Shown one piece after another: positions 1-10,238 of a DNA stretch of 10,238 bases. A program made the position numbers and the translations under genes. Under the pieces are notes generated by a model, which was not told the DNA's origin, searched no databases, and worked only from the letters and a program-made list of their open reading frames with translations. Source of the DNA: Burkholderiales bacterium (GTDB lineage: Bacteria > Pseudomonadota > Gammaproteobacteria > Burkholderiales > Burkholderiaceae_C); NCBI GenBank assembly GCA_005789685.1, contig SXXD01000205.1:1-10238 (forward strand), given 5' to 3'. The number at the start of each line of letters is the position of its first letter. The stretch's first letter is position 1.

Positions 1-398
1 CCTTGAAAACCAACTTCGGCCAATGTCATACCAGGTTTTTCAATCGCAAAATTCAAGTCTCGCCAATTTGCGTTTTCAATCAATGCTGCCAATTGCTTTT
101 GGTCTTGTGAAGGACCGCCCGCCATCCACACTTGTAACTCGTTCGGTTTTAAATCGGAAAACGATTTTCCCAAGTTGTATTGAACGATTTGAACTTGCGA
201 AGCCACATCGATCTTGTTCTGAGGCGATTGCTTCAATTCCTCAATTTCGTTGTCAATGTGCTTGCCCAAATTTTCATGTAGGTACAGCAAGATAGGGCCT
301 TCCGAAACTTGCCGAACCATGATGCGAGTGGCAACCGCAAATATCAGCATGCAAGCAAGCACGCCCAAAAAAACGTTCAGTCGGAAAGATTGAATCAT
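1..398 (-). CDS. Sensor histidine kinase, N-terminal part (cut by window edge)
   Basis: This open frame starts at an ATG five bases after the stop of the response regulator gene and runs without a stop through the left edge, giving about 132 residues. Residues 7-24 form a hydrophobic segment after a short basic start, as in an inner-membrane anchor. The rest (glutamate- and glutamine-rich, with no cysteine after residue 16) would be the periplasmic sensing region. No HAMP, DHp or ATP-binding motif lies inside the window, so kinase identity rests on position directly behind an OmpR-type regulator and on the usual regulator-kinase order. It is probably the cognate kinase of the regulator and part of the same transcript as the SPOR-domain gene. 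The signal sensed cannot be read from this part. A different membrane protein is possible but less likely. Confidence 0.75.
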   Translation of the reverse strand, partial: MIQSFRLNVFLGVLACMLIFAVATRIMVRQVSEGPILLYLHENLGKHIDNEIEELKQSPQNKIDVASQVQIVQYNLGKSFSDLKPNELQVWMAGGPSQDQKQLAALIENANWRDLNFAIEKPGMTLAEVGFQ

Positions 399-403
399 TT
401 GAA

Positions 404-1087
404 TCAGTAGTTGTTAAACCGATACCCAACGCCGCGAATGGTCTCAATGGGAAACTGTTCGCCCTCTGGCATTTTGTCGTCGGTTAGTTTTTTTCGAAGC
501 CTTTGCACACACACATCCACCACATTGGTACCCGGATCAAAATCGATTTGCCAGACTTGCTTCAGAATTTGTTGCCTTGAAAAAATTTGCCCCGGCGAAA
601 GCATCAAGCATTCCAACAGCAAGTACTCACGTTGCGTTAAATTAACTTTAATGGTTTTCCAATGGGCCACTCGGGTAAAACGATCTAGCGTGAGGCCACT
701 TTGAACCATGGTTTTTTCGACGCTGCCCTGCTTGCGACTCACCACTGTTTTAATTCGAATGATGAGTTCTTCAATAAAAAATGGTTTGGCCAAATAGTCG
801 TCGGCGCCTTTTTCAAAGCCTTGCAGTCGATCGGTCAAATCTGTGCGGGCCGACAAAATAATGATGGGGGTGGCTAAGTTTTTTCGGCGAATTTCAGCCA
901 ACACCGTCAGGCCATCCATCATGGGCAATGTGAGGTCTAAAACAATGGCGTCAAAGTTTTTGATCAAGGCCGTGTTAAGGCCGCGAAAACCATCTTGTTC
1001 CCAGTGTGTTGTAAATCCCACATCGGTAAAACCTGCAACAATGAAATCTGCAATTCGCTGTTCGTCTTCAATGAGCAAAATGTTCAT
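404..1087 (-). CDS. OmpR/PhoB-family response regulator
   Basis: A 227-residue two-domain transcription regulator of normal length. The receiver domain (about residues 1-115) has the acidic pair E7-D8, the phosphoacceptor D51 in the run VLDLTLPMMDG, S79 as the conserved Ser/Thr, and K101 in the KPF motif. The winged-helix DNA-binding domain (about 125-225) ends in the hallmark RGVGYRF. All residues needed for phosphotransfer are present, so it should be active. Its ATG overlaps the stop of the upstream SPOR-domain gene in an ATGA, which suggests translational coupling, and a likely sensor kinase follows five bases later. Subfamily (such as PhoP, QseB or CpxR type) cannot be settled from motifs alone. 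Target genes are unknown; the co-transcribed SPOR protein suggests an envelope or division signal, which is inference. Confidence 0.95.
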   Translation of the reverse strand: MNILLIEDEQRIADFIVAGFTDVGFTTHWEQDGFRGLNTALIKNFDAIVLDLTLPMMDGLTVLAEIRRKNLATPIIILSARTDLTDRLQGFEKGADDYLAKPFFIEELIIRIKTVVSRKQGSVEKTMVQSGLTLDRFTRVAHWKTIKVNLTQREYLLLECLMLSPGQIFSRQQILKQVWQIDFDPGTNVVDVCVQRLRKKLTDDKMPEGEQFPIETIRGVGYRFNNY

Positions 1088-2511
1088 TGCGGTGGTTTGG
1101 ACTGCGAAAGCAATGTGCCCTGGGGTTTGATGGTGACATCAGATGGCAAATTTAGCCGCACCATGGTGTTTTTAGCGCGGTCTCTGGATCTGAAGGGCCC
1201 GGTCACAACGGCAAACTTAGAGTCGTCTTTGCCCTGCTGGTAAACGGGAACAATGCGGGCGTTGGCCAACCAAGCCTTTGTCTTGATTGTGCTTTGAGCC
1301 TGCTTCACTGTTTCATAAACACCATGCTCTAACAAAAATGTGTCTTCTGGCAAGCCCCTCAGCCACAAGCGCCCCTTTACTGCCACATCAGGTAGCTCTG
1401 TAATGACCTTGGCCGGCTTAGCAGGCGTAGCTGCTGCCACTGGCGGAGTAGCTGGACCAACTGGCGGAGTGGCAACAGGCGCTTCTGGTTTAGCGGTGTA
1501 GGGCTTCAAGTCGGCAGGAGGGCCCGGTGGTGGGTTGTTGGCATCGTCCTTGGGCTGTCCGGGTGCTGCCACTTTTTCAGGCGCTGTGTCAGGGTTTGTT
1601 TCTAATTTGTTGTCTGCAGCGCTTTCTGCTTTCATTGCATTGTTTTGTGCCGTTTTTTTCTTTTCGGGGGAACCCAGTGCCAGCACATCGTCATAAAAAC
1701 CAGAGACCTGCGAAATCACTTTCTCGCTTAATTCTGGGTGCAAGATGGCTGCCACGCCCATAGAGCTGAGAAGCAAGGCAGACACGGCCAAGATCCATGT
1801 CCATTTTTTTGATTTCTTCGGATTCTTGGATTTGTCTTTCTGGGGTGCGGCTGCTTTGGAGGCACCGCCGCTTGCCACTGCTGCATTCAGTAAGGGGGTG
1901 GTTTTTTTAGTGCTTGCTTTGGCCAGTTTGTTGAAAAACTCAACCGCCATTTCTTCGTTGCCATTTTTCCTGGCTTGCTGAATGGCGCTGAGTTTTTGCT
2001 CGGGTGTCGGCAACTCCAACGCCCAAGAAACAAACTGTTTGTTTTGTGTAGCCAGTTTATCCGCTTGTGGGCTCTCAGAAGCAAACATCAAGACCGCACC
2101 AATGCCTGCACCAGGAAATTGCAAAATGAGCCGTGTGAACAAATCAAGCTCATGCGTGGCCAAAGCATTGGCATCATGAACCACCCAAATTTTTTCAGGC
2201 AACTGACCGCCCCTGGGCTTGGTGGCTTCATCCAGTTTGATGGTGGTGAGCAATTTGTTGAAGCGTTCTAGCATGGCCTCGGTGTCAGGCGGCATGAAAA
2301 CTTCAATGGGTGTATCTGGCAGTGCTCTTTTAAGGCGACGAATAAAGGCAGCGCCGAAATGATCAATCAGCTCGGTGGTTTTGCTGGAAATAACCACGCT
2401 CTTACCATCTTTGACCATGGCCATGGCACAGCTTTCCATCTGCAAGCGGTCCGTCATTCTGAAGAAGATTTCAGATTCAGACGAGTTGCTGCTGGCGCCA
2501 AAGTCGGTCAT
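1084..2511 (-). CDS. DamX-like SPOR-domain membrane protein with degenerate AAA-like N-terminus
   Basis: A 475-residue protein with the DamX layout: a cytoplasmic domain (about 1-200), a lysine-rich stretch before one membrane segment (about 237-257), a long Pro/Ala/Lys periplasmic linker (about 280-375) and a C-terminal SPOR domain (about 380-462, including VVTGPFRSRDRAKNTM). SPOR domains bind denuded glycan strands at the division septum, so the protein probably acts at the septum. The N-terminal domain resembles a GspA/DamX AAA fold with a Walker-B-like IWVVHDAN near 108-114. The P-loop region reads VKDGKS without the first glycine, so ATP binding is doubtful. The ATG at 2511 lacks a clear ribosome-binding site; methionines 19 and 25 are alternative starts. 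The gene leads an operon with a two-component system. Exact orthology to E. coli DamX is not proven. Confidence 0.8.
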   Translation of the reverse strand: MTDFGASSNSSESEIFFRMTDRLQMESCAMAMVKDGKSVVISSKTTELIDHFGAAFIRRLKRALPDTPIEVFMPPDTEAMLERFNKLLTTIKLDEATKPRGGQLPEKIWVVHDANALATHELDLFTRLILQFPGAGIGAVLMFASESPQADKLATQNKQFVSWALELPTPEQKLSAIQQARKNGNEEMAVEFFNKLAKASTKKTTPLLNAAVASGGASKAAAPQKDKSKNPKKSKKWTWILAVSALLLSSMGVAAILHPELSEKVISQVSGFYDDVLALGSPEKKKTAQNNAMKAESAADNKLETNPDTAPEKVAAPGQPKDDANNPPPGPPADLKPYTAKPEAPVATPPVGPATPPVAAATPAKPAKVITELPDVAVKGRLWLRGLPEDTFLLEHGVYETVKQAQSTIKTKAWLANARIVPVYQQGKDDSKFAVVTGPFRSRDRAKNTMVRLNLPSDVTIKPQGTLLSQSKPPQ

Positions 2512-2542
2512 GGATTTCTGTCAGTGGAGTGGCGAATGTGCC

Positions 2543-2583
2543 AATGATACGCACAATGTGGCCGAAAATGACGGGTATCATTG
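2543..2583. promoter_or_regulatory. Inverted repeat in divergent SPOR-gene/zapD control region
   Basis: The arms CAATGATAC (2542-2550) and GTATCATTG (2575-2583) are perfect 9-base inverted copies separated by 24 bases, so arm centres lie about 33 bases apart, close to three helical turns. Each arm contains TATCAT, a five-of-six match to a sigma-70 -10 box, pointing outward: one towards zapD and one towards the SPOR-domain gene. No good -35 box sits at the right spacing for either. The repeat may be an operator, a symmetric pair of promoters, or both. The whole intergenic space is only about 90 bases, so both genes must be controlled from here. Confidence 0.4.
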
Positions 2584-2603
2584 CCAGATTCAGGCAATGA
2601 ACA

Positions 2604-3383
2604 TTGACCCCAAGCAAAGTGGCCGCGATACTTTTTGAACACCCCCTTGACGAACTCACCAGCAATTTCTTGCGGGTTGAGACCTTGTTTTCTAGGGTCG
2701 ATGTGCTGATCAATCGGTTTTTCGCCATAGACCACCACTTTTGCCTTTTGTGCCTTTTTGAAATTGCCGATTTAGACGATCAATTCGACTTAAGCGCCCA
2801 AATCTTGGCGCAACTGAATGCCCAAAAAGCCAAATTGAATGGCTACCGAGGTAACCCCAAGGTTTCTGTCACGGTTCTGACTGAACTGCTAGCGCAGGTT
2901 GAACAACATATCGTGGCACTGCACTCGCAAAAAAAGAAGTTGGCTCACATGATTGCCGACGATGAATGGCTGTACAAACTTCGCGAAGGCATGGGACTGC
3001 CTGGCGGAACCAGCCCGTTTGATGCACCTCGATATTTTGCTTGGCAACACCGCAGCGGCGAAGATCGGAGGGAAGACCTGTTGAATTGGCTAGATTTCTT
3101 CAAACCCCTCAGAGAAAGCGTTGCCTTTTTAATGGGGCTCACTCGGGGCAATGCATCACACTCTCGTTTATTGGCCAAGGGTGGCGAGTATAGACAAAGC
3201 ATTCCGCAAGGAAAATGCAAGCTGGTTCAAATTTGGGTAGACCCTAAACTCAAGGCGACGCCCGAAGTACACGGCAACAAACTCATGGTGACCATTCGGT
3301 TTATTGACCGCGGGCCCAAAGGACAAACCAGCGCTTGTTTGGACGATATTCCCTTTGAGCTTGGCATGGTGATGGATCAATAA
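2604..3383 (+). CDS. zapD: Cell division protein ZapD
   Basis: A 259-residue protein matching the ZapD (formerly YacF/DUF1342) family along its length. Recognisable landmarks are LFEHPLDE near the start, FRVE-like FLRVE, the LPGGTSPFDAPRYFAW block near the middle, the LNWLDFFKPLRES helix, and the C-terminal beta-rich part with KLVQIWVDP and KLMVTIRFI. E. coli ZapD has 247 residues. ZapD is a cytoplasmic protein that binds the FtsZ C-terminus and bundles FtsZ filaments, stabilising the Z-ring. The start is uncertain: TTG at 2604 has AGG nine bases upstream, while GTG at 2619 gives MAAILFEHP, closer to relatives that begin a few residues before LFEHP. It stands apart from coaE, its partner in many proteobacteria, and is divergent from a septal SPOR protein instead. 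Confidence 0.92.
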   Translation: MTPSKVAAILFEHPLDELTSNFLRVETLFSRVDVLINRFFAIDHHFCLLCLFEIADLDDQFDLSAQILAQLNAQKAKLNGYRGNPKVSVTVLTELLAQVEQHIVALHSQKKKLAHMIADDEWLYKLREGMGLPGGTSPFDAPRYFAWQHRSGEDRREDLLNWLDFFKPLRESVAFLMGLTRGNASHSRLLAKGGEYRQSIPQGKCKLVQIWVDPKLKATPEVHGNKLMVTIRFIDRGPKGQTSACLDDIPFELGMVMDQ

Positions 3384-3436
3384 TTCAAAAGTACTCTTTT
3401 GCCTGAAAAGTTTTCCAAGCTCAAGCGCTAGTAATT

Positions 3437-3445
3437 TGCTAAAAT
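3437..3445 (+). promoter_or_regulatory. Possible extended -10 promoter for the bactofilin operon
   Basis: TGCTAAAAT matches the extended -10 form TGnTATAAT with one mismatch in the hexamer, and it sits about 20 bases before the GTG start of the first bactofilin. No good -35 hexamer is seen at 16-18 bases upstream, which extended -10 promoters can tolerate. The leader would be about 14 bases, long enough to hold the ribosome-binding site at 3455-3460. The zapD stop lies 56 bases upstream with no terminator between, so read-through from zapD is equally possible. Confidence 0.35.
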
Positions 3446-3454
3446 TCCCCAATT

Positions 3455-3460
3455 AGGGAG
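3455..3460 (+). promoter_or_regulatory. Ribosome-binding site fixing the GTG start of bactofilin 1
   Basis: AGGGAG lies five bases before the GTG at 3466. An overlapping ATG at 3464 is in a different frame that does not encode the bactofilin, so this site and the frame together settle GTG as the start. Confidence 0.6.
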
Positions 3461-3465
3461 CAAAT

Positions 3466-3849
3466 GTGGCAAATCCAGCAGATTCACTTGAAAGCGTCGT
3501 TATTGGCGATGGCGTTACCGTCAAGGGGGTGTTTTTTATACCCTCTAAAGCCGTGGTCAATGGCATCATTGAGGGCGACTTAACAGCTGAAGAAGTTTTG
3601 ATTGGCCCCACTGGCAAAATCACGGGCCGCATTTCAGCCAAAGTCATTGATGTTCGCGGTCAACTGCACAACACGGTGGTGAGCGAGAAGAGTTTGATCA
3701 TTCGCTCTACTGGCAAGATCACCGGCAAGATTCATTACGTCGAAATTGAAATTGAAAAGGGCGGCGAGATCGAAGGGACTTTGACTCAAGCCATTGAAGG
3801 TACGTTGAACGCGGCCTCAATTTTAAACAACGGCCCAGCGCCTGTTTAA
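3466..3849 (+). CDS. Bactofilin 1
   Basis: A 127-residue bactofilin (polymer-forming cytoskeletal protein, DUF583). The core, about residues 9-113, is a run of short beta strands with glycine turns typical of the bactofilin right-handed beta-helix: VIGDGVTVKG, GIIEGDLTAE, LIGPTGKITG, IIRSTGKITG, then the signature IEIEKGGEIEG. Bactofilins self-assemble without nucleotide into filaments, often membrane-associated, that position wall enzymes and other partners. The N-terminus (MANPADS) is short and lacks the MFxK membrane-targeting type of start. The gene begins with GTG behind a good AGGGAG site and heads an operon with an M23 peptidase 12 bases downstream and two more bactofilins. It is about half identical by eye to bactofilin 3, suggesting duplication within the operon. 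Confidence 0.93.
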   Translation: MANPADSLESVVIGDGVTVKGVFFIPSKAVVNGIIEGDLTAEEVLIGPTGKITGRISAKVIDVRGQLHNTVVSEKSLIIRSTGKITGKIHYVEIEIEKGGEIEGTLTQAIEGTLNAASILNNGPAPV

Positions 3850-3861
3850 CCGGCACCTGAC

Positions 3862-4905
3862 ATGCAATTAGCAAGATTGCTCTGGCTAAGCGTGTTGTCG
3901 CTTCCCTCAACATTGCTTCATTGGTGGCGCAAAGATTACCAAGATTCAAGAATTATTTTTGAACAAAACGGTGACCTTCAATATTTTGCGATCTCTGCCA
4001 AACTCCAGCGCATGTTGGTTCGTGGCAGCATCGTCACACTCACCTCTTTGTCCACGGCGCTGATTGTTCTTTCAATCATCACCATCAGCCTGCAAATCAG
4101 TAGAGCTCGGCTAGAGAAATCACATCAAGAAGTTTTCAAGGCCCTCGTCAGTGGCACCGCCGACGCTCAATCTGGTGACGTCATCGAAATGAGCGAAGAT
4201 CAGATGGTTGCTTTGGCTCAGTCTATTCGCGACAGAGACATGAGCATTCGCCGTTATGTTGACACCTCCACGGCTGCGGTGTCCCAAGAAAATGTGTCCT
4301 TCAAATCTCAGCTAGATTCATCTGGTTTGACCGAAAAAATTGTCAAAATTATTCAACAAAACAATCCCAAGGGCGGATTCAACTTAACCGACGACATTAA
4401 CAACAACCCATTACTTCGGGGTAAAGTGGCCGATGAATTGGCCACAAATCGTGCACTGCGCGATGTCTTGTTTGCACTTCCAAACAAAATGCCTGTCAGC
4501 AATTACGCTCTGACCTCAGACTTTGGCATCCGCAAACACCCCATCACTGGTCAATCTCACTTTCACACGGGCTTGGACCTGCTTAGCGAAAATGGGAACG
4601 ACAAGGTACACCCAGTTAAGGAAGGCGTGGTCGTTCTTTCACAAAATCACCCACAGTACGGCAATACGGTTGTAGTGCGCCACACCAATGGCATTGAATC
4701 GCTGTATGCCCACATGTCGCAGTTGTTGGTTAAAGTTGGTGACAAAGTTAACCACGATTCTGTCTTGGGTTACATTGGCAACACGGGCGTTTCCACTGGG
4801 AAGCACTTACACCTAGAAATATTGGTGGGTGGCTATCCTGTCAACCCACAAAAAGTCATCCGGACGGCTCAGCATGTTCAACAAATTCAAATCAGCTCCA
4901 AATAA
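3862..4905 (+). CDS. Membrane-anchored M23 (LytM) peptidoglycan endopeptidase A
   Basis: A 347-residue protein: a cytoplasmic N-terminal stretch (1-54), one membrane segment (about 55-77), a helical, probably coiled-coil region (about 80-205) and a C-terminal M23 domain (about 213-332). The zinc and catalytic residues are all visible: H235 and D239 in HTGLD, H284 in YAHMS, and H315 and H317 in KHLHLE. It should therefore be an active zinc endopeptidase cutting peptide crosslinks in peptidoglycan, with its domain in the periplasm. The architecture matches bactofilin-linked peptidases such as LmdC of stalked bacteria and Csd1-type enzymes of Helicobacter. It lies 12 bases after bactofilin 1, and its last 32 bases overlap the start of bactofilin 2, a tight coupling that supports joint function. 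The ribosome-binding site is weak. Confidence 0.93.
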   Translation: MQLARLLWLSVLSLPSTLLHWWRKDYQDSRIIFEQNGDLQYFAISAKLQRMLVRGSIVTLTSLSTALIVLSIITISLQISRARLEKSHQEVFKALVSGTADAQSGDVIEMSEDQMVALAQSIRDRDMSIRRYVDTSTAAVSQENVSFKSQLDSSGLTEKIVKIIQQNNPKGGFNLTDDINNNPLLRGKVADELATNRALRDVLFALPNKMPVSNYALTSDFGIRKHPITGQSHFHTGLDLLSENGNDKVHPVKEGVVVLSQNHPQYGNTVVVRHTNGIESLYAHMSQLLVKVGDKVNHDSVLGYIGNTGVSTGKHLHLEILVGGYPVNPQKVIRTAQHVQQIQISSK

Positions 4906-5398
4906 CGCCAACAAAGAACCTGAAGAAGCGGCTGAACCAGTCGCGCCTGAAGAAATTGTGCTTGTTAAAGAAGAAGAGCCTGCCATGCCAGTTGCGCCGG
5001 CCACCACACCCAATGTCACACCCAATGTCACGCCAAGTGCACCCCAGCAGCGCGGCAACGGGGTGATGGGCATGCTTCAGGCCAACGTTTCTAAGCCTTC
5101 TATTCTGAGCGAAGGCTTTTACTTCAAGGGTGAGTTGTCTGCCAAAGGCACCATCCACGTTGAAGGCTCTTTGAATGGTCAGGTTAATGTAGATGAGCTG
5201 ACCATCGGCTCGCGCGGTCAAGTTGACGGCATTGTGAACTGCAAAAACTTTCACATCAAGGGCCGATTTTCAGGCACGGCCACATGCGAAGAGCTCACAG
5301 TCACATCCTCCGCAACTGTCGATGGCCATGTGGTTTACAAAACACTTTCTGTTCAAAAAGGCGCGTCTATCAAGGGTGAGTTGCTTTTAGCAAAGTAA
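4874..5398 (+). CDS. Bactofilin 2, with N-terminal MFNK and long linker
   Basis: A 174-residue bactofilin. The beta-helix core occupies about residues 76-171 (GFYFKGELSAKGTIHVEGSL onward, ending in LSVQKGASIKGELL). In front is an unusually long, acidic and Pro/Val-rich tail (about 10-70) holding a small NVTP-NVTP repeat. I chose the ATG at 4874, which lies inside the last codons of the M23 gene. A GTG at 4829 would add 15 residues but would bury the MFNKFKSA start. That start resembles the MFSKQAKS membrane-targeting peptide of Caulobacter BacA, so this bactofilin probably binds the membrane directly. The 32-base overlap with the peptidase gene suggests translational coupling and a working pair. 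GGACGG upstream could serve as a weak ribosome-binding site. Confidence 0.9.
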   Translation: MFNKFKSAPNNANKEPEEAAEPVAPEEIVLVKEEEPAMPVAPATTPNVTPNVTPSAPQQRGNGVMGMLQANVSKPSILSEGFYFKGELSAKGTIHVEGSLNGQVNVDELTIGSRGQVDGIVNCKNFHIKGRFSGTATCEELTVTSSATVDGHVVYKTLSVQKGASIKGELLLAK

Positions 5399-5449
5399 TC
5401 ACCATCGCACCATTCCATGTACCCTATTCAACTCTAAGTCGCTTTCAAA

Positions 5450-5776
5450 ATGAACCCTACCACCAAACAAAACAGTGTTTTCATCGGCGAAGGCGTTTCC
5501 TTCAAAGGCAGCATCAACGCACCTGACGAAGCCGTGATTGAAGGTCAATTTGATGGCGACCTGACTGTGAGCAATTTACTCATTGGCCAAACAGGCCGTG
5601 TAACAGGCACCATCAAGGCAGACCGCGTGGACGTGAAGGGCGAGCTGAACAAAGACATCAGCAGCCGTCAGCTGCTGATCGTTCGAAGCACTGGCAAAGT
5701 GAACGGCACATTAGAGTACGGTGAAATTGAAATTGAACGCGGCGGCCAAGTCCGCGGCAACATGAGCCAAGTTTAA
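5450..5776 (+). CDS. Bactofilin 3
   Basis: A compact 108-residue bactofilin that is almost all core (about residues 9-106): VFIGEGVSFKG, GQFDGDLTVS, LIGQTGRVTG, IVRSTGKVNG and the signature EIEIERGGQVRG. It has only a short N-terminal tail (MNPTTKQN) and almost no C-terminal tail, and it lacks an MFxK start. By hand alignment roughly half its core residues match bactofilin 1 without gaps, so the two look like products of a duplication, while bactofilin 2 between them is more distant. It could co-polymerise with bactofilin 1 or 2, which is inference. It is the last gene of the plus-strand operon: it starts 51 bases after bactofilin 2 with a weak ribosome-binding site and is followed by a strong terminator. 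Confidence 0.93.
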   Translation: MNPTTKQNSVFIGEGVSFKGSINAPDEAVIEGQFDGDLTVSNLLIGQTGRVTGTIKADRVDVKGELNKDISSRQLLIVRSTGKVNGTLEYGEIEIERGGQVRGNMSQV

Positions 5777-5809
5777 GACACTTTATTGCGTGTTCAATCA
5801 CCCATGTGC

Positions 5810-5834
5810 AAAGGGCCTCATCAGAGGCCCTTTT
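5810..5834 (+). terminator. Rho-independent terminator after bactofilin 3
   Basis: A perfect 10-base-pair stem (AAAGGGCCTC at 5810-5819 with GAGGCCCTTT at 5824-5833), loop ATCA, then a T-rich tail that is broken by G and A (TTTTGATTTGTTT from 5831). It ends the bac-M23-bac-bac operon 34 bases after its last stop. On the minus strand the same hairpin has only TTTGC after it, so it may act weakly on transcripts of the convergent ParA-like gene. Confidence 0.85.
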
Positions 5835-5852
5835 GATTTGTTTGAACAGACT

Positions 5853-6725
5853 TTATTTGTAATTTCTGACCTGCAGGAAGGCGGGCAAGGCGGGCAATAC
5901 GGCCTTCACTTTGTCTTTGAAACTGGTCTTTGCGTAATCATTGGCTGCATTAACGGGCCTGATGCTGGCCTTTTCATTCATGCCGGCACGAAACCTGTCT
6001 AAGATTGATCCGCTCATTTTGGGCTGATACAAGCTGGTTATGCTTTTCTTATCACTCAATTGGCTTCGGCCCAGTTGGACAATGGCATTGCCAAAGTCAA
6101 TGAAGTTTTCACGAATTTCTTCGCTTTGCGCTGTGACAAAAAACTCTGTTCCAAAAAACTCACTGGCTGTTTCATTGAACATCACAGGGGGTGACATGAA
6201 AAAACTCGTATTGAATGACTGCATGAACACGTTGGAATAGGTTTCCAAATTGGCCACCCGGCTAGGCACAATGACCAACTTGGGCGGCGTTCGCATCGTT
6301 GAGTTGAAAACAAATCCGAAACGGTTGACAAACTCGAGTGTGCTGTCCAGTTCGACACGCGACAATGAGGTTGGGACCAGCACCAAATCGAAATCAAACA
6401 AAAATTCGGCTGGCAAAATATCTGTCCATGTGAGATCGGCTATGACCGCTTCGGTTTGGCTTGAAACACTTCTGAGTGCTTGCTTGGCCTGCAACAAAGC
6501 CAGGCCAGAGCCTTTGTTATTGGGTGATTGAACAGAAATACACTGTATGCCTAAAGGCGCGGCATTTCTGACCCACTTGCCAGCCGTGGCTTGGTGGTCT
6601 AGATCTACCAGGCTCGTGGTTTTTTGAGCCACATGGGCAAAAAAAGCAGCCAAATTGGCAGAAACAGTGCTTTTCCCTACGCCACCCTTTTGACTGGTGA
6701 TGAGGATTTTCAGTTTAGCTGTCAT
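5853..6725 (-). CDS. Orphan ParA/MinD-family ATPase
   Basis: A 290-residue cytoplasmic P-loop ATPase. The deviant Walker A motif KGGVGKST (13-20) with signature lysine K13 marks the ParA/MinD class. Walker A' is SLVDLDHQAT (38-47), Walker B is AVIADL (93-98), and VLVPTSLSRVELDST (115-129) matches the usual strand and contact region. Such ATPases dimerise on ATP, bind DNA or membrane, and are released by a partner that triggers hydrolysis, thereby positioning cargo. There is no ParB gene, and no parS-like palindrome was noticed, so chromosome partition is unlikely to be its sole role. The tail (266-290, with LPALPAFLQ) is hydrophobic and basic. The frame is open to 6824, but the ATG at 6725 is preferred because it lies just before the P-loop strand and has GTGAG six bases upstream. 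It diverges from two unknown genes. Confidence 0.88.
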   Translation of the reverse strand: MTAKLKILITSQKGGVGKSTVSANLAAFFAHVAQKTTSLVDLDHQATAGKWVRNAAPLGIQCISVQSPNNKGSGLALLQAKQALRSVSSQTEAVIADLTWTDILPAEFLFDFDLVLVPTSLSRVELDSTLEFVNRFGFVFNSTMRTPPKLVIVPSRVANLETYSNVFMQSFNTSFFMSPPVMFNETASEFFGTEFFVTAQSEEIRENFIDFGNAIVQLGRSQLSDKKSITSLYQPKMSGSILDRFRAGMNEKASIRPVNAANDYAKTSFKDKVKAVLPALPAFLQVRNYK

Positions 6726-6764
6726 CTGTAACTCACTGTATTCAAAGAAAAAAGAACTTAACAA

Positions 6765-6793
6765 TTGCGTGGGGGGAAAATTTGCCCTATTAT
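6765..6793 (+). promoter_or_regulatory. Sigma-70 promoter for the two-gene unknown operon
   Basis: TTGCGT (6765-6770), a 17-base spacer containing six consecutive G, then TATTAT (6788-6793). The hexamers match consensus at four and five positions with ideal spacing. Transcription would start near 6800, giving a leader of about 47 bases with an AAAGGA ribosome-binding site at 6836-6841. Confidence 0.6.
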
Positions 6794-6795
6794 CG

Positions 6796-6824
6796 AATTT
6801 ACATAAAAAAACGATTCTTGGCAA
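6796..6824 (-). promoter_or_regulatory. Possible divergent promoter for the ParA-like gene
   Basis: Read on the minus strand, TTGCCA (6824-6819, five of six), a 17-base spacer, then TAAATT (6801-6796, four of six). Its -10 box is two bases from the -10 box of the opposing promoter, so the two polymerase sites overlap and should compete. The leader to the ParA-like ATG would be about 65 bases. Confidence 0.4.
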
Positions 6825-6846
6825 CTTATTTTTCTAAAGGACCCCC

Positions 6847-7362
6847 ATGAGCCAGCAAAACCCTAAGCTCGTGATGATGCGTTTTGACCCCAGAGCCGGT
6901 TGGGTTCAGCCATCTGAGGAGCGCATTGAAGTAGATGAAGATGAGGCGCAAGTGCGTCAACCACAAGCGTCATCGCTGGCCCCATCTGCCAATCCGGCGC
7001 CTCTTTTAAGAGAAGCCCCGCCCCCCTCAGCGACTAAAGCACCTGCACCAGAGTCACTGACCGAGTTGGGCGCCTCCATTGTTGAGGTTTTTAACTCACT
7101 CAAACTTGACGACCCTCGGCTTGAAATTTGGACGCAAGTCAATGCCAGCATTGAAAAGATCTCTGAAAAAATAAACGAGCAACAACTTCTTGAACAGAAG
7201 CTTCATGAAGTCGCCATTGACATCGAAAATTTGCGCAATTTGACCGCTGAGTTTGTCAATCACGCCTATCATAACGAAGTCGAGATTCATGCAACATCCA
7301 AAGTTCGCGTCCAAATTGCCGAGTCTTTGAATCAACGAATTAAGAATGCACTGAAGACATGA
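6847..7362 (+). CDS. Unrecognised coiled-coil protein
   Basis: A 171-residue soluble protein that I do not recognise. Three zones can be seen: a short N-terminal segment with spaced basic residues (PKLVMMRFDPRAGW, about 6-19) followed by an acidic run (about 24-34); a low-complexity Ala/Pro linker (about 41-68); and a long helical region (about 71-170) with heptad-like spacing of hydrophobics from about residue 92, a probable coiled coil. There is no signal peptide or membrane segment. A strong AAAGGA ribosome-binding site sits five bases before the ATG and a good sigma-70 promoter lies upstream. Its stop overlaps the next ATG. Divergence from a ParA-like ATPase suggests it could be the partner that positions or activates that ATPase; this is inference from gene order and the basic N-terminal tail. 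Confidence 0.8.
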   Translation: MSQQNPKLVMMRFDPRAGWVQPSEERIEVDEDEAQVRQPQASSLAPSANPAPLLREAPPPSATKAPAPESLTELGASIVEVFNSLKLDDPRLEIWTQVNASIEKISEKINEQQLLEQKLHEVAIDIENLRNLTAEFVNHAYHNEVEIHATSKVRVQIAESLNQRIKNALKT

Positions 7363-7751
7363 AGTTGTGGCGTATGTTTTCCAGTTTTTTGGCCAATTCG
7401 TTTTTCGTTTTAAATTGGATGGGCTTTGTTTGGGTCAGCTTTGTCATGGCCTCTGGCAAAGATGGCTTGAGCGTCTTCTTAAGCTTGCCATGGGGTTCAT
7501 TTCTCACCGAGCTTTCAAACATAAGCCCTCAGGGAAATGTTGACTCTGGCAGCGTATGGATTGCTTGGCTCATTCTTAGCTTGGCCTATTCATGGGCCAT
7601 GCTGGCACGCCAACACTCGCTTCACAAAGAAAGCAGCCCAACCCACCTGGATGTTGCCAGTTTGGTCAAAAACAAAAAGCGGGAAATTGAGTCAGATCCT
7701 GAATTGAAACAAAGCCTGAACAAACTGAATCAGCTGCTCAAAAACTCCTGA
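7359..7751 (+). CDS. Unrecognised two-helix membrane protein
   Basis: A 130-residue protein of unknown family. Hydrophobic segments at about 10-31 and 66-83 are likely membrane helices, separated by a loop of about 35 residues. The C-terminal part (about 90-130) is charged and helical, with KNKKREIE followed by a leucine-rich LNKLNQLLKN end that could form a short coiled coil. Charge balance (basic residues at the start, an arginine and lysines after the second helix) suggests both ends face the cytoplasm and the loop faces the periplasm. The ATG overlaps the stop of the preceding gene in an ATGA, so the two are very likely translated together and may form a complex, with this one as the membrane anchor. 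It is the last gene before a convergent bactofilin. Confidence 0.8.
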   Translation: MKLWRMFSSFLANSFFVLNWMGFVWVSFVMASGKDGLSVFLSLPWGSFLTELSNISPQGNVDSGSVWIAWLILSLAYSWAMLARQHSLHKESSPTHLDVASLVKNKKREIESDPELKQSLNKLNQLLKNS

Positions 7752-7790
7752 TGCAGGTGCATTTGCCTCTTCAAGTCGCTGCTGCTTGCT

Positions 7791-8231
7791 TTAACGTTTT
7801 TCTTTAGCAACTTGCGCGTTTTGAATAGCGGCCTTGGCGCCTGAGGCCGAGTCTGATGCGGTTTTATTTTGAATCACCAAGCCCAACAACCTTGCGCCAT
7901 GCTCTACAGCAATGGAGCCATAAGAAATATCGCCATTCACAATAGAGTCTTTGTGAAACTCTACCCGCTCAGCCGCATAAATATTGCCATCCACCTTGCC
8001 AGCCACCATGATGCGGTGTGCGGTAATGTCGCCAGTGACTTCACCTGAAGAGCCAATGGCGACTGTAATTTTATTGCCCGAAGCAGATTCAATGTTGCCA
8101 AGCACTTTGCCATCAATTCGAACGCTGTCTAGCAAAACCAAGCGGCCATGAATGGTGGTCGTTTGGCCAATCAGTGTGTCAAATCTTTCTTGGCTGGAAG
8201 CGAAAGATTTTTCTTTGAGTTTTTCAAACAT
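7791..8231 (-). CDS. Bactofilin 4, with N-terminal MFEK
   Basis: A 146-residue bactofilin. The beta-helix core spans about residues 18-120 (TLIGQTTTIHGRL, VRIDGKVLGNI, AIGSSGEVTGDI, MVAGKVDGNI, IVNGDISYGSIAVEHGARLLG). The start MFEKLKEKS resembles the membrane-targeting peptide of Caulobacter BacA, as in bactofilin 2. The C-terminal tail (121-146) is Ala/Lys/Ser rich and probably disordered. It follows M23 peptidase B by 36 bases on the same strand, which makes a second peptidase-bactofilin module. Sequence similarity to bactofilins 1 and 3 is lower than theirs to each other. No Shine-Dalgarno-like sequence is seen before the ATG, but the start fits the family well. It converges on the unknown membrane protein gene with 39 bases between them and no clear terminator. 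Confidence 0.92.
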   Translation of the reverse strand: MFEKLKEKSFASSQERFDTLIGQTTTIHGRLVLLDSVRIDGKVLGNIESASGNKITVAIGSSGEVTGDITAHRIMVAGKVDGNIYAAERVEFHKDSIVNGDISYGSIAVEHGARLLGLVIQNKTASDSASGAKAAIQNAQVAKEKR

Positions 8232-8267
8232 AGAGGATGTGTTTCAGATGGCCACGCTTGAAGGACA

Positions 8268-9203
8268 TCAATTGTTCAGAGATTTAACAGGCAGCACCTG
8301 CATAGGATTGAGAACCCGCCCATTTTGAAAAATTTCGTAATGCAAATGCGGGCCCGTCGATCGACCCGTACTTCCTACATTGCCGATAAGCGCGCCCCTG
8401 GTCAGGTGGGTGTTTTCTTTCACAAGTCGCTTGCTTAAATGCGCGTACCTTGTCACGTAGTTTTCTGCATGCTTGATTTCAATCACGTTGCCATAGCCAT
8501 TGTCCCATTCTGAACGAACGACAACACCTGGCGCGGTGGCCAGCACAGGCGTGCCCACTTCGGCAGAAAAATCAAGTCCCTCGTGCATGGCCAATGCACC
8601 TGTAAAGGGGTCGTTCCGAATACCAAAGCCGCTGGTCAATCGAAAATCTGCCTCAATGGGAAACCCGATGGGCAAGGCTTCTAACCAACTCAAGTGGCCC
8701 TGCCATTGCTTTTCATAATGTCCTAACTTTGCAACAACATCATCTAAATCGTTGGCTGTTTGTTGCAATTCGGTGTGCAGAGGCAAACGGAAAAAACCAT
8801 TTTTAAACACAGGCGAAACAAAGGGGCCGCCCTTTGCATCATCTTTCGATGGGAGTTTGACCTTGGCACCTACAGGCGTGGCCAGGTCCATGAACTTGTT
8901 TTTCAAAGACTCAAGCCGCTTGACTTCAGCAACGGTTTGCTCCATGGAGTTTCGCACTTGCTCAAGCCGCTGGCGATAAATGGCCTCCATGCGCTGTTGT
9001 TCAGCTTCCGTGGTGACACCGCCCATGGTGCGCGCCAAGTCGGGGTTGTATTCCACTGCAAAGCGCAACCCTATCCAATTCAACAAGAAACCCACAAGCA
9101 TGAGGCCTAAGCCAAGCGAGAACGCACCACGCACGACCGTGCGAGCGGTAATAGAAATAGATTTAACCTGGCCGGTAGGGCCAGAGAGCCACATGAGTTG
9201 CAT
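8268..9203 (-). CDS. Membrane-anchored M23 (LytM) peptidoglycan endopeptidase B
   Basis: A 311-residue protein: a short cytoplasmic start, one membrane segment (about 26-46), a long helical region with probable coiled coil (about 64-106 and 143-172), and an M23 domain (about 183-302). Catalytic and zinc residues are intact: H207 and D211 in HEGLD, H255 in YAHLS, and H286 and H288 in PHLHYE. The opening of the domain (LTSGFGIRNDPFTG) is typical of wall endopeptidases of the MepM/NlpD group. It should cut crosslinks in periplasmic peptidoglycan. Bactofilin 4 follows by 36 bases, probably on the same transcript, so this looks like a second copy of the peptidase-bactofilin arrangement. The ATG at 9203 has no clear ribosome-binding site; a second ATG three codons later is an alternative. 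Confidence 0.93.
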   Translation of the reverse strand: MQLMWLSGPTGQVKSISITARTVVRGAFSLGLGLMLVGFLLNWIGLRFAVEYNPDLARTMGGVTTEAEQQRMEAIYRQRLEQVRNSMEQTVAEVKRLESLKNKFMDLATPVGAKVKLPSKDDAKGGPFVSPVFKNGFFRLPLHTELQQTANDLDDVVAKLGHYEKQWQGHLSWLEALPIGFPIEADFRLTSGFGIRNDPFTGALAMHEGLDFSAEVGTPVLATAPGVVVRSEWDNGYGNVIEIKHAENYVTRYAHLSKRLVKENTHLTRGALIGNVGSTGRSTGPHLHYEIFQNGRVLNPMQVLPVKSLNN

Positions 9204-9227
9204 GGAAGTTTTAGGGTTGGGAGGTGT

Positions 9228-9256
9228 ATTTTAGGGATTCACCTGTCTAACGTCTA
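9228..9256 (-). promoter_or_regulatory. Possible promoter for M23 peptidase B and bactofilin 4
   Basis: Read on the minus strand, TAGACG (9256-9251, four of six), a 17-base spacer, then TAAAAT (9233-9228, five of six). Transcription would begin near 9221, leaving a leader of about 18 bases before the ATG at 9203. Confidence 0.4.
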
Positions 9257-9295
9257 CTAAAAAAACGAGCAGTTTGGTCAATCCACTGATTTTGA

Positions 9296-9324
9296 TTGCT
9301 ATGTTCATGAAGTCTGAATATGAT
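9296..9324 (+). promoter_or_regulatory. Sigma-70 promoter for the RodZ-like gene
   Basis: TTGCTA (9296-9301, four of six), a 17-base spacer, then TATGAT (9319-9324, five of six). Transcription would begin near 9331. This argues against the in-frame ATGs at 9320 and 9323, which lie inside the -10 box, and for the ATG at 9371 as the true start. Confidence 0.5.
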
Positions 9325-9370
9325 GCCTAATGTTAGCGTATTCAGCCAACTTAAAAACCAATTATTTAGT

Positions 9371-10238
9371 ATGCAAAAACAGCAGCCTATCTGGTCCCAA
9401 GAGCATGGGGCGCTACTTAAAAAATTGCGGGAAAACGCAAACTTGGACGTTTCCTCAGTGGCGCACCGCAATACGGTCTCTAAATCTCAAGTGGTTCAAC
9501 TCGAAGACGGCGGAGACAGCTCCTTCTACAACCCAGACATCAAGTACAGCACCGGCAAGAAGTTACTGAAATTCTTGGGACATGACTTGTTAGAGCCAAC
9601 AGCCGCGAAGCCCACGACGTTGGAGCCTTCCAAGGCCATTTCGCCTGATCCCATTGAACCCTTAGATTCAGTCTTTATATTGCCAAAAGCAGAGCCCTTG
9701 GCATCGGAGCCAATTCAGCCAACACCTGTTCCACTTGCAGCGACCCAACACTCATTTGAGTCCAGCCCAGCAGTGGCACCTCCTACTGTCTTTTCGAAAA
9801 ATATGACTTGGGGGCTGTTGTTAGTGGGTATGGTATGCTTCGCAATTTTTGGTCTGCTTGAATTGGACAAGCCTCAGCCCAGTGCACCTTCAGCCAAAAG
9901 CGCTGTGACGGACAACTTACCCACCGCTGAAGTTAAGCCAACGGCAGACGAGACCAAATTACAAGGTCAAGAACAAACCATTCAGCCCACACCTGCGCTA
10001 GCAGACAGTGCATCCAGTGCTGCTAACTCGGCATCAGCTCAAAAGGCACAAGAAGTCGCTACAGCCATGTCTGAGAATGCTAAGAAGTGCTTATGGGAAG
10101 ATGCAGAAACTGAGTTGGTTCCGGCCGCACCCAAGAAGGCGCCAGAATATGTTTACATGGTTGCCACGAAGGACATGTTTGTTTGCGTGATGGATGGCAA
10201 TGAACGTGTAGCAGGTCTTAATTTAAAAAACGGCGATC
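9371..10238 (+). CDS. RodZ-like protein: helix-turn-helix, membrane segment, start of C-terminal domain (cut by window edge)
   Basis: At least 289 residues, open at the right edge. Residues about 12-72 resemble the helix-turn-helix of RodZ (GALLKKLRENANLDVSSVAH, SKSQVVQLEDG, LLKFLGHDL). A Pro-rich linker follows (about 73-142), then one membrane segment (about 145-164), a second low-complexity Ala/Pro/Thr region (165-255), and the opening of a beta domain, MFVCVMDGNERVAGLNLKNGD, which fits the RodZ DUF4115 pattern. RodZ links MreB to the wall-building complex and sets rod shape; its helix-turn-helix binds MreB. The usual neighbours of rodZ (rlmN, pilF, ispG) are absent here, so this may be a second, specialised RodZ-like protein. 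The start at 9371 has no clear ribosome-binding site but agrees with the promoter at 9296-9324; in-frame ATGs at 9320 and 9323 would add 16-17 residues. Confidence 0.8.
   Translation, partial: MQKQQPIWSQEHGALLKKLRENANLDVSSVAHRNTVSKSQVVQLEDGGDSSFYNPDIKYSTGKKLLKFLGHDLLEPTAAKPTTLEPSKAISPDPIEPLDSVFILPKAEPLASEPIQPTPVPLAATQHSFESSPAVAPPTVFSKNMTWGLLLVGMVCFAIFGLLELDKPQPSAPSAKSAVTDNLPTAEVKPTADETKLQGQEQTIQPTPALADSASSAANSASAQKAQEVATAMSENAKKCLWEDAETELVPAAPKKAPEYVYMVATKDMFVCVMDGNERVAGLNLKNGD

Follow-up and report, generated by a model that had tools for sequence, protein, structure and literature searches.

Gene content of the locus

The window analyzed here is a 10,238-nucleotide stretch of DNA from a Burkholderiales bacterium (contig SXXD01000205.1, assembly GCA_005789685.1) and represents one whole contig of a 1.81-Mb metagenome-assembled genome (MAG) that is 73% complete. 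An earlier note on this DNA had placed four bactofilins, two membrane-anchored M23 peptidases, ZapD, a RodZ-like protein and a ParA-like ATPase between positions 2604 and 10238, and all of them were recovered in open reading frame (ORF) and profile scans. It left unremarked that the ZapD is a paralogue and that two further genes, orfX and orfY, accompany ParA. We find the island to be a variant of the known bactofilin/M23 shape module; it is real and conserved, rare in occurrence and mosaic in ancestry. The ZapD paralogue is new and is its most surprising part. The features are listed below, with transmembrane (TM)-like segments called by hydropathy.

1084..2511, minus strand: SPOR-like membrane protein (SPOR match E 0.049, below cut-off)
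2604..3383, plus strand: ZapD2, a divergent second ZapD (PF07072, 178.5 bits; likely start near 2619 by homology)
3466..3849, plus strand: Bac1, bactofilin without an MFxK motif, as judged from tree and N-terminus (PF04519, 69.8 bits)
3862..4905, plus strand: M23a, membrane-anchored M23 peptidase of LmdC-like layout with a conserved cytoplasmic tail (PF01551, 93.9 bits; TM-like 51-70)
4874..5398 (ORF from 4829), plus strand: Bac2, bactofilin with an MFNK membrane-targeting-like motif (PF04519, 79.8 bits)
5450..5776, plus strand: Bac3, bactofilin without an MFxK motif (PF04519, 83.8 bits)
5810..5833, strand not applicable: weak terminator-like hairpin between the convergent bac3 and parA
5853..6725 (ORF to 6824), minus strand: ParA/MinD-type ATPase (KGGVGKST Walker A; CbiA and AAA_31 above cut-off)
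6847..7362, plus strand: orfX, ParA partner with a conserved N-terminal motif and a C-terminal part, adjoining ParA in other genomes
7359..7751, plus strand: orfY, small membrane protein with one TM-like segment, overlapping orfX and adjoining ParA-orfX in G870, G943 and G944
7791..8231, minus strand: Bac4, bactofilin with an MFEK membrane-targeting-like motif (PF04519, 82.5 bits)
8268..9203, minus strand: M23b, membrane-anchored M23 peptidase paired with Bac4 (PF01551, 119.6 bits; TM-like 22-41)
9320..10238, plus strand: RodZ-like protein with a helix-turn-helix (HTH) and a TM-like segment at 161-184 (HTH_19 E 0.00065, below cut-off)

All four bactofilins score above the PF04519 gathering threshold (69.8-83.8 bits against 27.9) and are the only bactofilin matches in this genome. 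The probable start of ParA at 6725 is conserved in alignment A1. The RodZ-like gene runs off the contig end, so its frame is truncated. The RodZ-like label is reasonable but weak: HTH, TM and RodZ_C come in the order expected of RodZ, with profile matches that remain below cut-off; the uncut homologue in G018 carries both HTH and RodZ_C, again below cut-off (RodZ_C E 0.0013). Terminator-like sites in the region number 13 against 10.0 (standard deviation 3.4) in shuffled sequence and, as a set, are not above chance.

Bactofilin classes, M23 peptidases and the ZapD paralogue

The bactofilins comprise two classes. A tree of 46 proteins separates Bac1 and Bac3 from Bac2, Bac4 and the single bactofilins (support 97/94); it has several long branches, shows only weak unity of Bac1 (59/86) and does not fix the internal order of Bac4. 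An MFxK motif occurs in the N-terminal part of 14/14 Bac2 and 6/6 Bac4 proteins, in none of the 18 Bac1 and Bac3 proteins, and in its exact form in three of eight single bactofilins. It begins at residue 1 in 9 of the 20 Bac2 and Bac4 proteins and 2 to 42 residues further on, behind a longer ORF start, in the rest (the start of the window's Bac2 is our choice). The membrane-targeting peptide reported for bactofilins, in the portion of PMC12448750 available to us, is MFSKQAKS, with MFSKKKK as the consensus.

Both peptidase genes lie next to bactofilin genes. M23a lies between Bac1 and Bac2, its 3’ end overlapped by the Bac2 gene, and M23b adjoins Bac4, an arrangement seen in all 12 genus loci returned as DNA from a bactofilin search of 35 genomes. 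In both enzymes a short tail at the N-terminus is followed by one TM-like segment and by an M23 domain. In M23a, 11 of 30 tail positions are invariant compared with 51 of 130 in the M23 domain (alignment A3, 11 rows); the corresponding counts for M23b are 6/21 and 38/125 (A4, 12 rows). The picture weakens when 20 closer M23a rows are used (A5), at 10/30 and 66/130. In two alignments the tail comes close to the catalytic domain in conservation, and in the third it falls behind. Residues H235, D239, H315 and H317 of M23a (A3 and A5) and H207, D211, H286 and H288 of M23b (A4) are invariant; we take these to be the M23 zinc ligands (H..D, HxH). A structure model of M23a (mean predicted local distance difference test score, pLDDT, 59) places the tail in a helix at 2-36 (pLDDT about 70), followed by helices at 46-100 and 112-153 ahead of the M23 strands, with low confidence in the linker; the model of M23b was unusable (pLDDT 38).

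This layout recalls the BacA-LmdC system of Hyphomonas neptunium and Rhodospirillum rubrum, in which, according to the accessible text of PMC10945521, a bactofilin gene adjoins or overlaps a bitopic M23 gene, and the bactofilin polymer recruits the enzyme via a cytoplasmic tail that precedes the TM segment, altering local growth and curvature. Likewise, CcmA-Csd1 of Helicobacter pylori, as described in the same text, combines a bactofilin and an M23 peptidase that acts on curvature, with different partners and with ParA and ZapD unmentioned in that part of the paper. The island differs from BacA-LmdC in having the pairing twice and two classes among its four bactofilins, and in adding ZapD2, ParA-orfX-orfY and a RodZ-like gene. 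Gene content bears out the earlier suggestion that it holds more parts than either model describes. M23a and M23b likely work in the manner of LmdC and are candidates for LmdC proper.

Bac1-M23a-Bac2 (a bactofilin without the targeting motif, an M23 peptidase, and a bactofilin with the motif) is a clear, recurring and testable unit. In the genus of G870, 12 of 87 genomes encode M23a; the trio is complete at 11 of these loci, the twelfth (L111) being truncated ahead of Bac1. M23a was found in 8 of 399 genomes of the family sample, the window's included, and the other seven all show the order bactofilin-M23a-bactofilin, the arrangement in G423 being only distantly related (30%). When four close M23a rows were searched across the order, 5/399 genomes gave any match and a full-length relative turned up in the window's own genome only; the wider M23a alignment did find full-length relatives in the family. 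In the genus of G870, Bac2 is followed by a small gene with weak winged-helix matches (L091:2235-2603; similar in L105-L109, L112 and L113), which may be a regulator of the trio.

The ZapD encoded at the locus belongs to the ZapD family by curated thresholds (PF07072 178.5 bits, cut-off 27; NCBIfam NF003656 225.5, cut-off 213) and matches solved ZapD structures by sequence. The earlier note had named it simply ZapD; it is not the usual zapD of the cell and represents a second, divergent copy. Two ZapD genes are present in 4/4 genomes with the array and one in 7/7 other genomes tested with PF07072 (the array copy of G078 is truncated by a contig end). ZapD2 is 35% identical to the canonical ZapD of the same genome. 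In the three loci displayed (G000, the window's genome; G001; G193) the canonical zapD follows a coaE-like gene, so named from reading the translation; ZapD2 is not at that site, which in the window's genome (G000:C152, L142) holds the other zapD. The eight ZapD2 rows form one clade on a long branch with 100/100 support in a ZapD protein tree, and a protein search (59 matches among reachable candidates) returned ZapD2-like proteins at 59-96% identity followed by ordinary ZapDs at no more than 39%. As two copies are present, mere relocation of ZapD was rejected. Compared with ZapD as FtsZ cross-linker, the island copy differs in number, branch length, locus and the loss of some basic residues; it keeps those at 16, 23, 30, 119, 147, 173 and 224, and is mixed elsewhere. 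Most subscription papers lay outside the literature search, which found no text combining bactofilin and ZapD and, as judged from titles and abstract starts, none about a ZapD paralogue.

ParA is accompanied by orfX and orfY, neither of which has a Pfam family above cut-off; the best 120 of 633 orfX relatives are named “hypothetical protein” or carry assorted loose names. The window contains no match, with up to three mismatches, to the parS consensus that we presumed for the scan, and no ParB or ParBC match was found among the window proteins scanned; a canonical ParABS system at the locus is therefore not supported. Of the 87 genomes in the genus of G870, three encode ParA, and each of the three is one of the 12 with M23a although the two genes are unlinked (hypergeometric 0.002, relatedness ignored). 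ParA relatives in genus g148, which lack orfX and bactofilins nearby in the three loci opened out of four, were not used in the argument. A relative of the SPOR-like protein (25-27% identity) lies approximately 4 kb from ParA in two genomes of genus g105, very probably that of Limnohabitans sp. INBF002 (L067:2444-3976, L068:13286-14866), possibly a further tie between ParA and the island.

The earlier note also proposed that one locus joins Z-ring, MreB-linked and bactofilin scaffolds. The genes are indeed co-located, and a bactofilin-mreB adjacency is seen again in G870 and G908, where mreB comes immediately after a Bac3-type gene (L091:4869-6250, overlapping; L112:6916-8297); that mreB encodes the second full-length MreB of each genome and mreC and mreD were not recognized beside it. 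For the RodZ-like link the recurrence is weaker: the trio is followed by an HTH gene in four g105 genomes, G917 and G953, and the G917 protein has a RodZ_C match just under cut-off. Since the ZapD of the window is a second, divergent copy, we infer the tie to the Z-ring rather than observe it. The g105 genomes G193 and G296 also encode a second full-length MreB (L163, L164), with no bactofilin within 1.5 kb on either side.

Distribution, selection and ancestry of the block

The grouping of the bactofilins is not due to chance. Among 35 genomes of the same genus searched, 24 gave a bactofilin match, above cut-off in 23 of them, and a set of four was seen in G018 alone; its five PF04519 matches represent four bactofilins, one gene being seen on two contig ends. 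In a separate genome, G013, a 281-amino-acid frame contains two tandem bactofilin matches (L039:7872-8708). Of 90 genus genomes, four encode ParA, and these four are also the ones with M23a: that of the window, G018, G078 and G073. Gene order is identical in the three further genomes, although the G018 locus is split over two contigs and the G078 contig ends inside zapD. The G073 locus is complete, with bac3 destroyed by a deletion that fuses the beginning of the gene to the 3’ terminus of parA (L047:3889-4269) and with a short, diverged orfY. The same order in MAGs of different accession series led us to reject a chimeric-MAG artefact. By contrast, the array-free genomes G001 (complete) and G008 encode RodZ-like, M23b, Bac4 and SPOR-like proteins with nothing between Bac4 and the SPOR-like gene, and the block at 2512-7790 therefore looks present or absent as a unit. 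Bac4 is the bactofilin type found in array-free genus members. Because G001 and G008 are without the block and only 4/90 genomes carry it, the conservation of gene order that the earlier note asked of close relatives holds only in part, which goes some way towards the outcome that the note had named as refuting.

The island genes are under purifying selection. The ratio of nonsynonymous to synonymous substitution rates (dN/dS) is 0.03-0.19 in most comparisons and 0.17-0.30 for orfY; two values were not computable, Bac3 shows no change at all relative to G078, and dS to G073 often exceeds 2, where it is unreliable.

The ancestry of the block is mosaic, and its components seem to derive from related freshwater bacteria. 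The trio is nearest to g105, with identities to g105 and G870 of 79 and 48% for Bac1, 66 and 51% for M23a, and 55 and 41% for Bac2; ParA-orfX is nearest to the other genus, with identities to G870 and g105 of 71 and 39% for ParA and 54 and 20% for orfX. Bac4 is 82% identical to G870 against 68% (G001) and 73% (G008), and its tree does not fix its place. M23b is 64% identical to G870 and 66% to both G001 and G008, yet in the M23b tree G870 adjoins the four holders (92/99), which themselves group together (95/98). In a housekeeping tree, whose species order derives from one 3.6-kb stretch, the array-free G001 and G008 fall among the array holders; the ZapD protein tree places G001 inside this set and G008 outside. 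At 48%, the guanine-cytosine (GC) content of the window is lower than that of two further loci in the same genome (52.5 and 53.7%). Loss combined with horizontal exchange would be the simplest reading of these thin data.

A candidate wall-remodelling machine and its alternatives

We propose that the island encodes an LmdC-like, bactofilin-based machine that locally remodels the cell wall, with curvature as its probable output, and we assign this a probability of roughly 0.55. Bac2 and Bac4, predicted to be membrane-targeted, would mix with the untargeted Bac1 and Bac3 in membrane-attached polymers. The putative endopeptidases M23a and M23b would be recruited by their cytoplasmic tails and cut cross-links at the polymer; such local cutting may alter wall insertion so that the envelope bends. 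The RodZ-like protein could connect the machine to MreB-guided synthesis, and ZapD2 could provide a connection with the division site or FtsZ. Positioning of the structure in the cell could fall to ParA-orfX-orfY. In a bolder version, which we consider rather unlikely to hold in full, freshwater Comamonadaceae would exchange the island horizontally as a curvature cassette; ZapD2, a duplicated Z-ring protein, would have been turned into a bridge from division or FtsZ to a two-class bactofilin polymer with two M23 enzymes, and ParA, orfX and orfY would place it. If true, a single locus would couple division, positioning and bending. Bactofilin/M23 pairs are established shape modules, and this block unites a ZapD paralogue, a ParA unit, a RodZ-like gene and two bactofilin classes.

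Several results weigh against the wall-remodelling proposal. The block occurs in just 4/90 genus genomes, with no carrier among the 56 best (at least 90% complete, at most 5% contaminated). The LmdC β-hairpin is absent from the tail in the one usable model of M23a, at moderate confidence. ZapD2 lacks basic residues kept in other aligned ZapDs at 10, 12, 52 and 56, and its binding to FtsZ may be gone. ParA-orfX-orfY is kept together in G870, G943 and G944 with no bactofilins beside it; 9 of the 12 M23a genomes in the genus of G870 are without ParA; the two g105 ParA loci opened (L067, L068) have a distant orfX and no bactofilin beside; and the family sample includes both ParA without M23a (G490) and M23a without ParA (G371). 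RodZ_C was found in 0/4 g105 HTH proteins by profile scan, and a second MreB was not found in the array genomes, all of which are incomplete.

A rival reading is one of independent neighbors: a ParA-orfX-orfY system for positioning some other cargo that, together with ZapD2, recombined into a bactofilin/M23 shape locus without joint function. The different nearest relatives of the trio and the ParA unit fit such a history, as do the dispersal of array holders in the housekeeping tree, the G870 ParA unit standing alone beside thiamine genes, the mixed strands and the lower GC content of the window. We nevertheless regard it as unlikely, since gene order has been kept under purifying selection despite a dS to G073 of approximately 0.9 or more where estimable (values above 2 being unreliable), and since ParA in the genus of G870 is confined to M23a genomes even though unlinked.

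Alternatively, the bactofilins could hold ParA via orfX as an adapter and serve nucleoid segregation rather than shape. In Myxococcus xanthus, several bactofilin genes (BacNOP) are likewise connected to ParA through PadC, as reported in the section of PMC5703909 at hand; there the adapter carries a ParBC domain and the chromosome a ParABS system, whereas the island has M23 enzymes, an orfX with no ParBC match and no parS in the window. ParA does adjoin bac3, and orfX sits beside ParA in several genera. This chromosome organizer is quite unlikely, as ParA-orfX is unlinked to bactofilins elsewhere, the scans for parS and ParB/ParBC in the window were negative, and the two M23 enzymes point to the wall. 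Least probable, and in our view very unlikely, is a division-site variant in which ZapD2 ties the bactofilin/M23 polymers to FtsZ for septal or zonal growth at midcell rather than along one flank: ZapD2 heads the row of genes that contains the trio and, among the 11 genomes tested, occurs only in the four with the array, a weak SPOR-like gene lies at the locus, and FtsA precedes bactofilin at Borrelia growth zones (PMC13393453, in part), but conserved basic residues are lost in ZapD2 and the g105 genomes G193 and G296 have the trio with one ZapD.

Beyond the block, a two-component pair (sensor kinase and response regulator, window 3-1087) adjoins the SPOR-like gene and is also present in G018 (L036), with a different ORF in its place in the G073 locus (L047). 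The SPOR match of the G073 homologue (E 0.004) is also below cut-off.

Finally, an indirect hint of a curved-rod phenotype accompanies the proposed wall-remodelling machine. The g105 genome G193 is very probably Limnohabitans sp. INBF002, since its orfX protein is identical to that of INBF002 over the 150 residues displayed. The part of PMC10019246 available to us places INBF002 in tribe Lhab-A3, with L. australis and L. curvus as its two named species; the paper contains no terms for curved shape or morphology, which adds to the points against curvature. PMC3031073 describes curved rods for L. curvus and L. australis, short rods for L. parvus and rods for L. planktonicus. INBF002 (JCM 16620) very probably carries the trio and the HTH RodZ-like gene, which makes the curved shape of Limnohabitans genetically testable.

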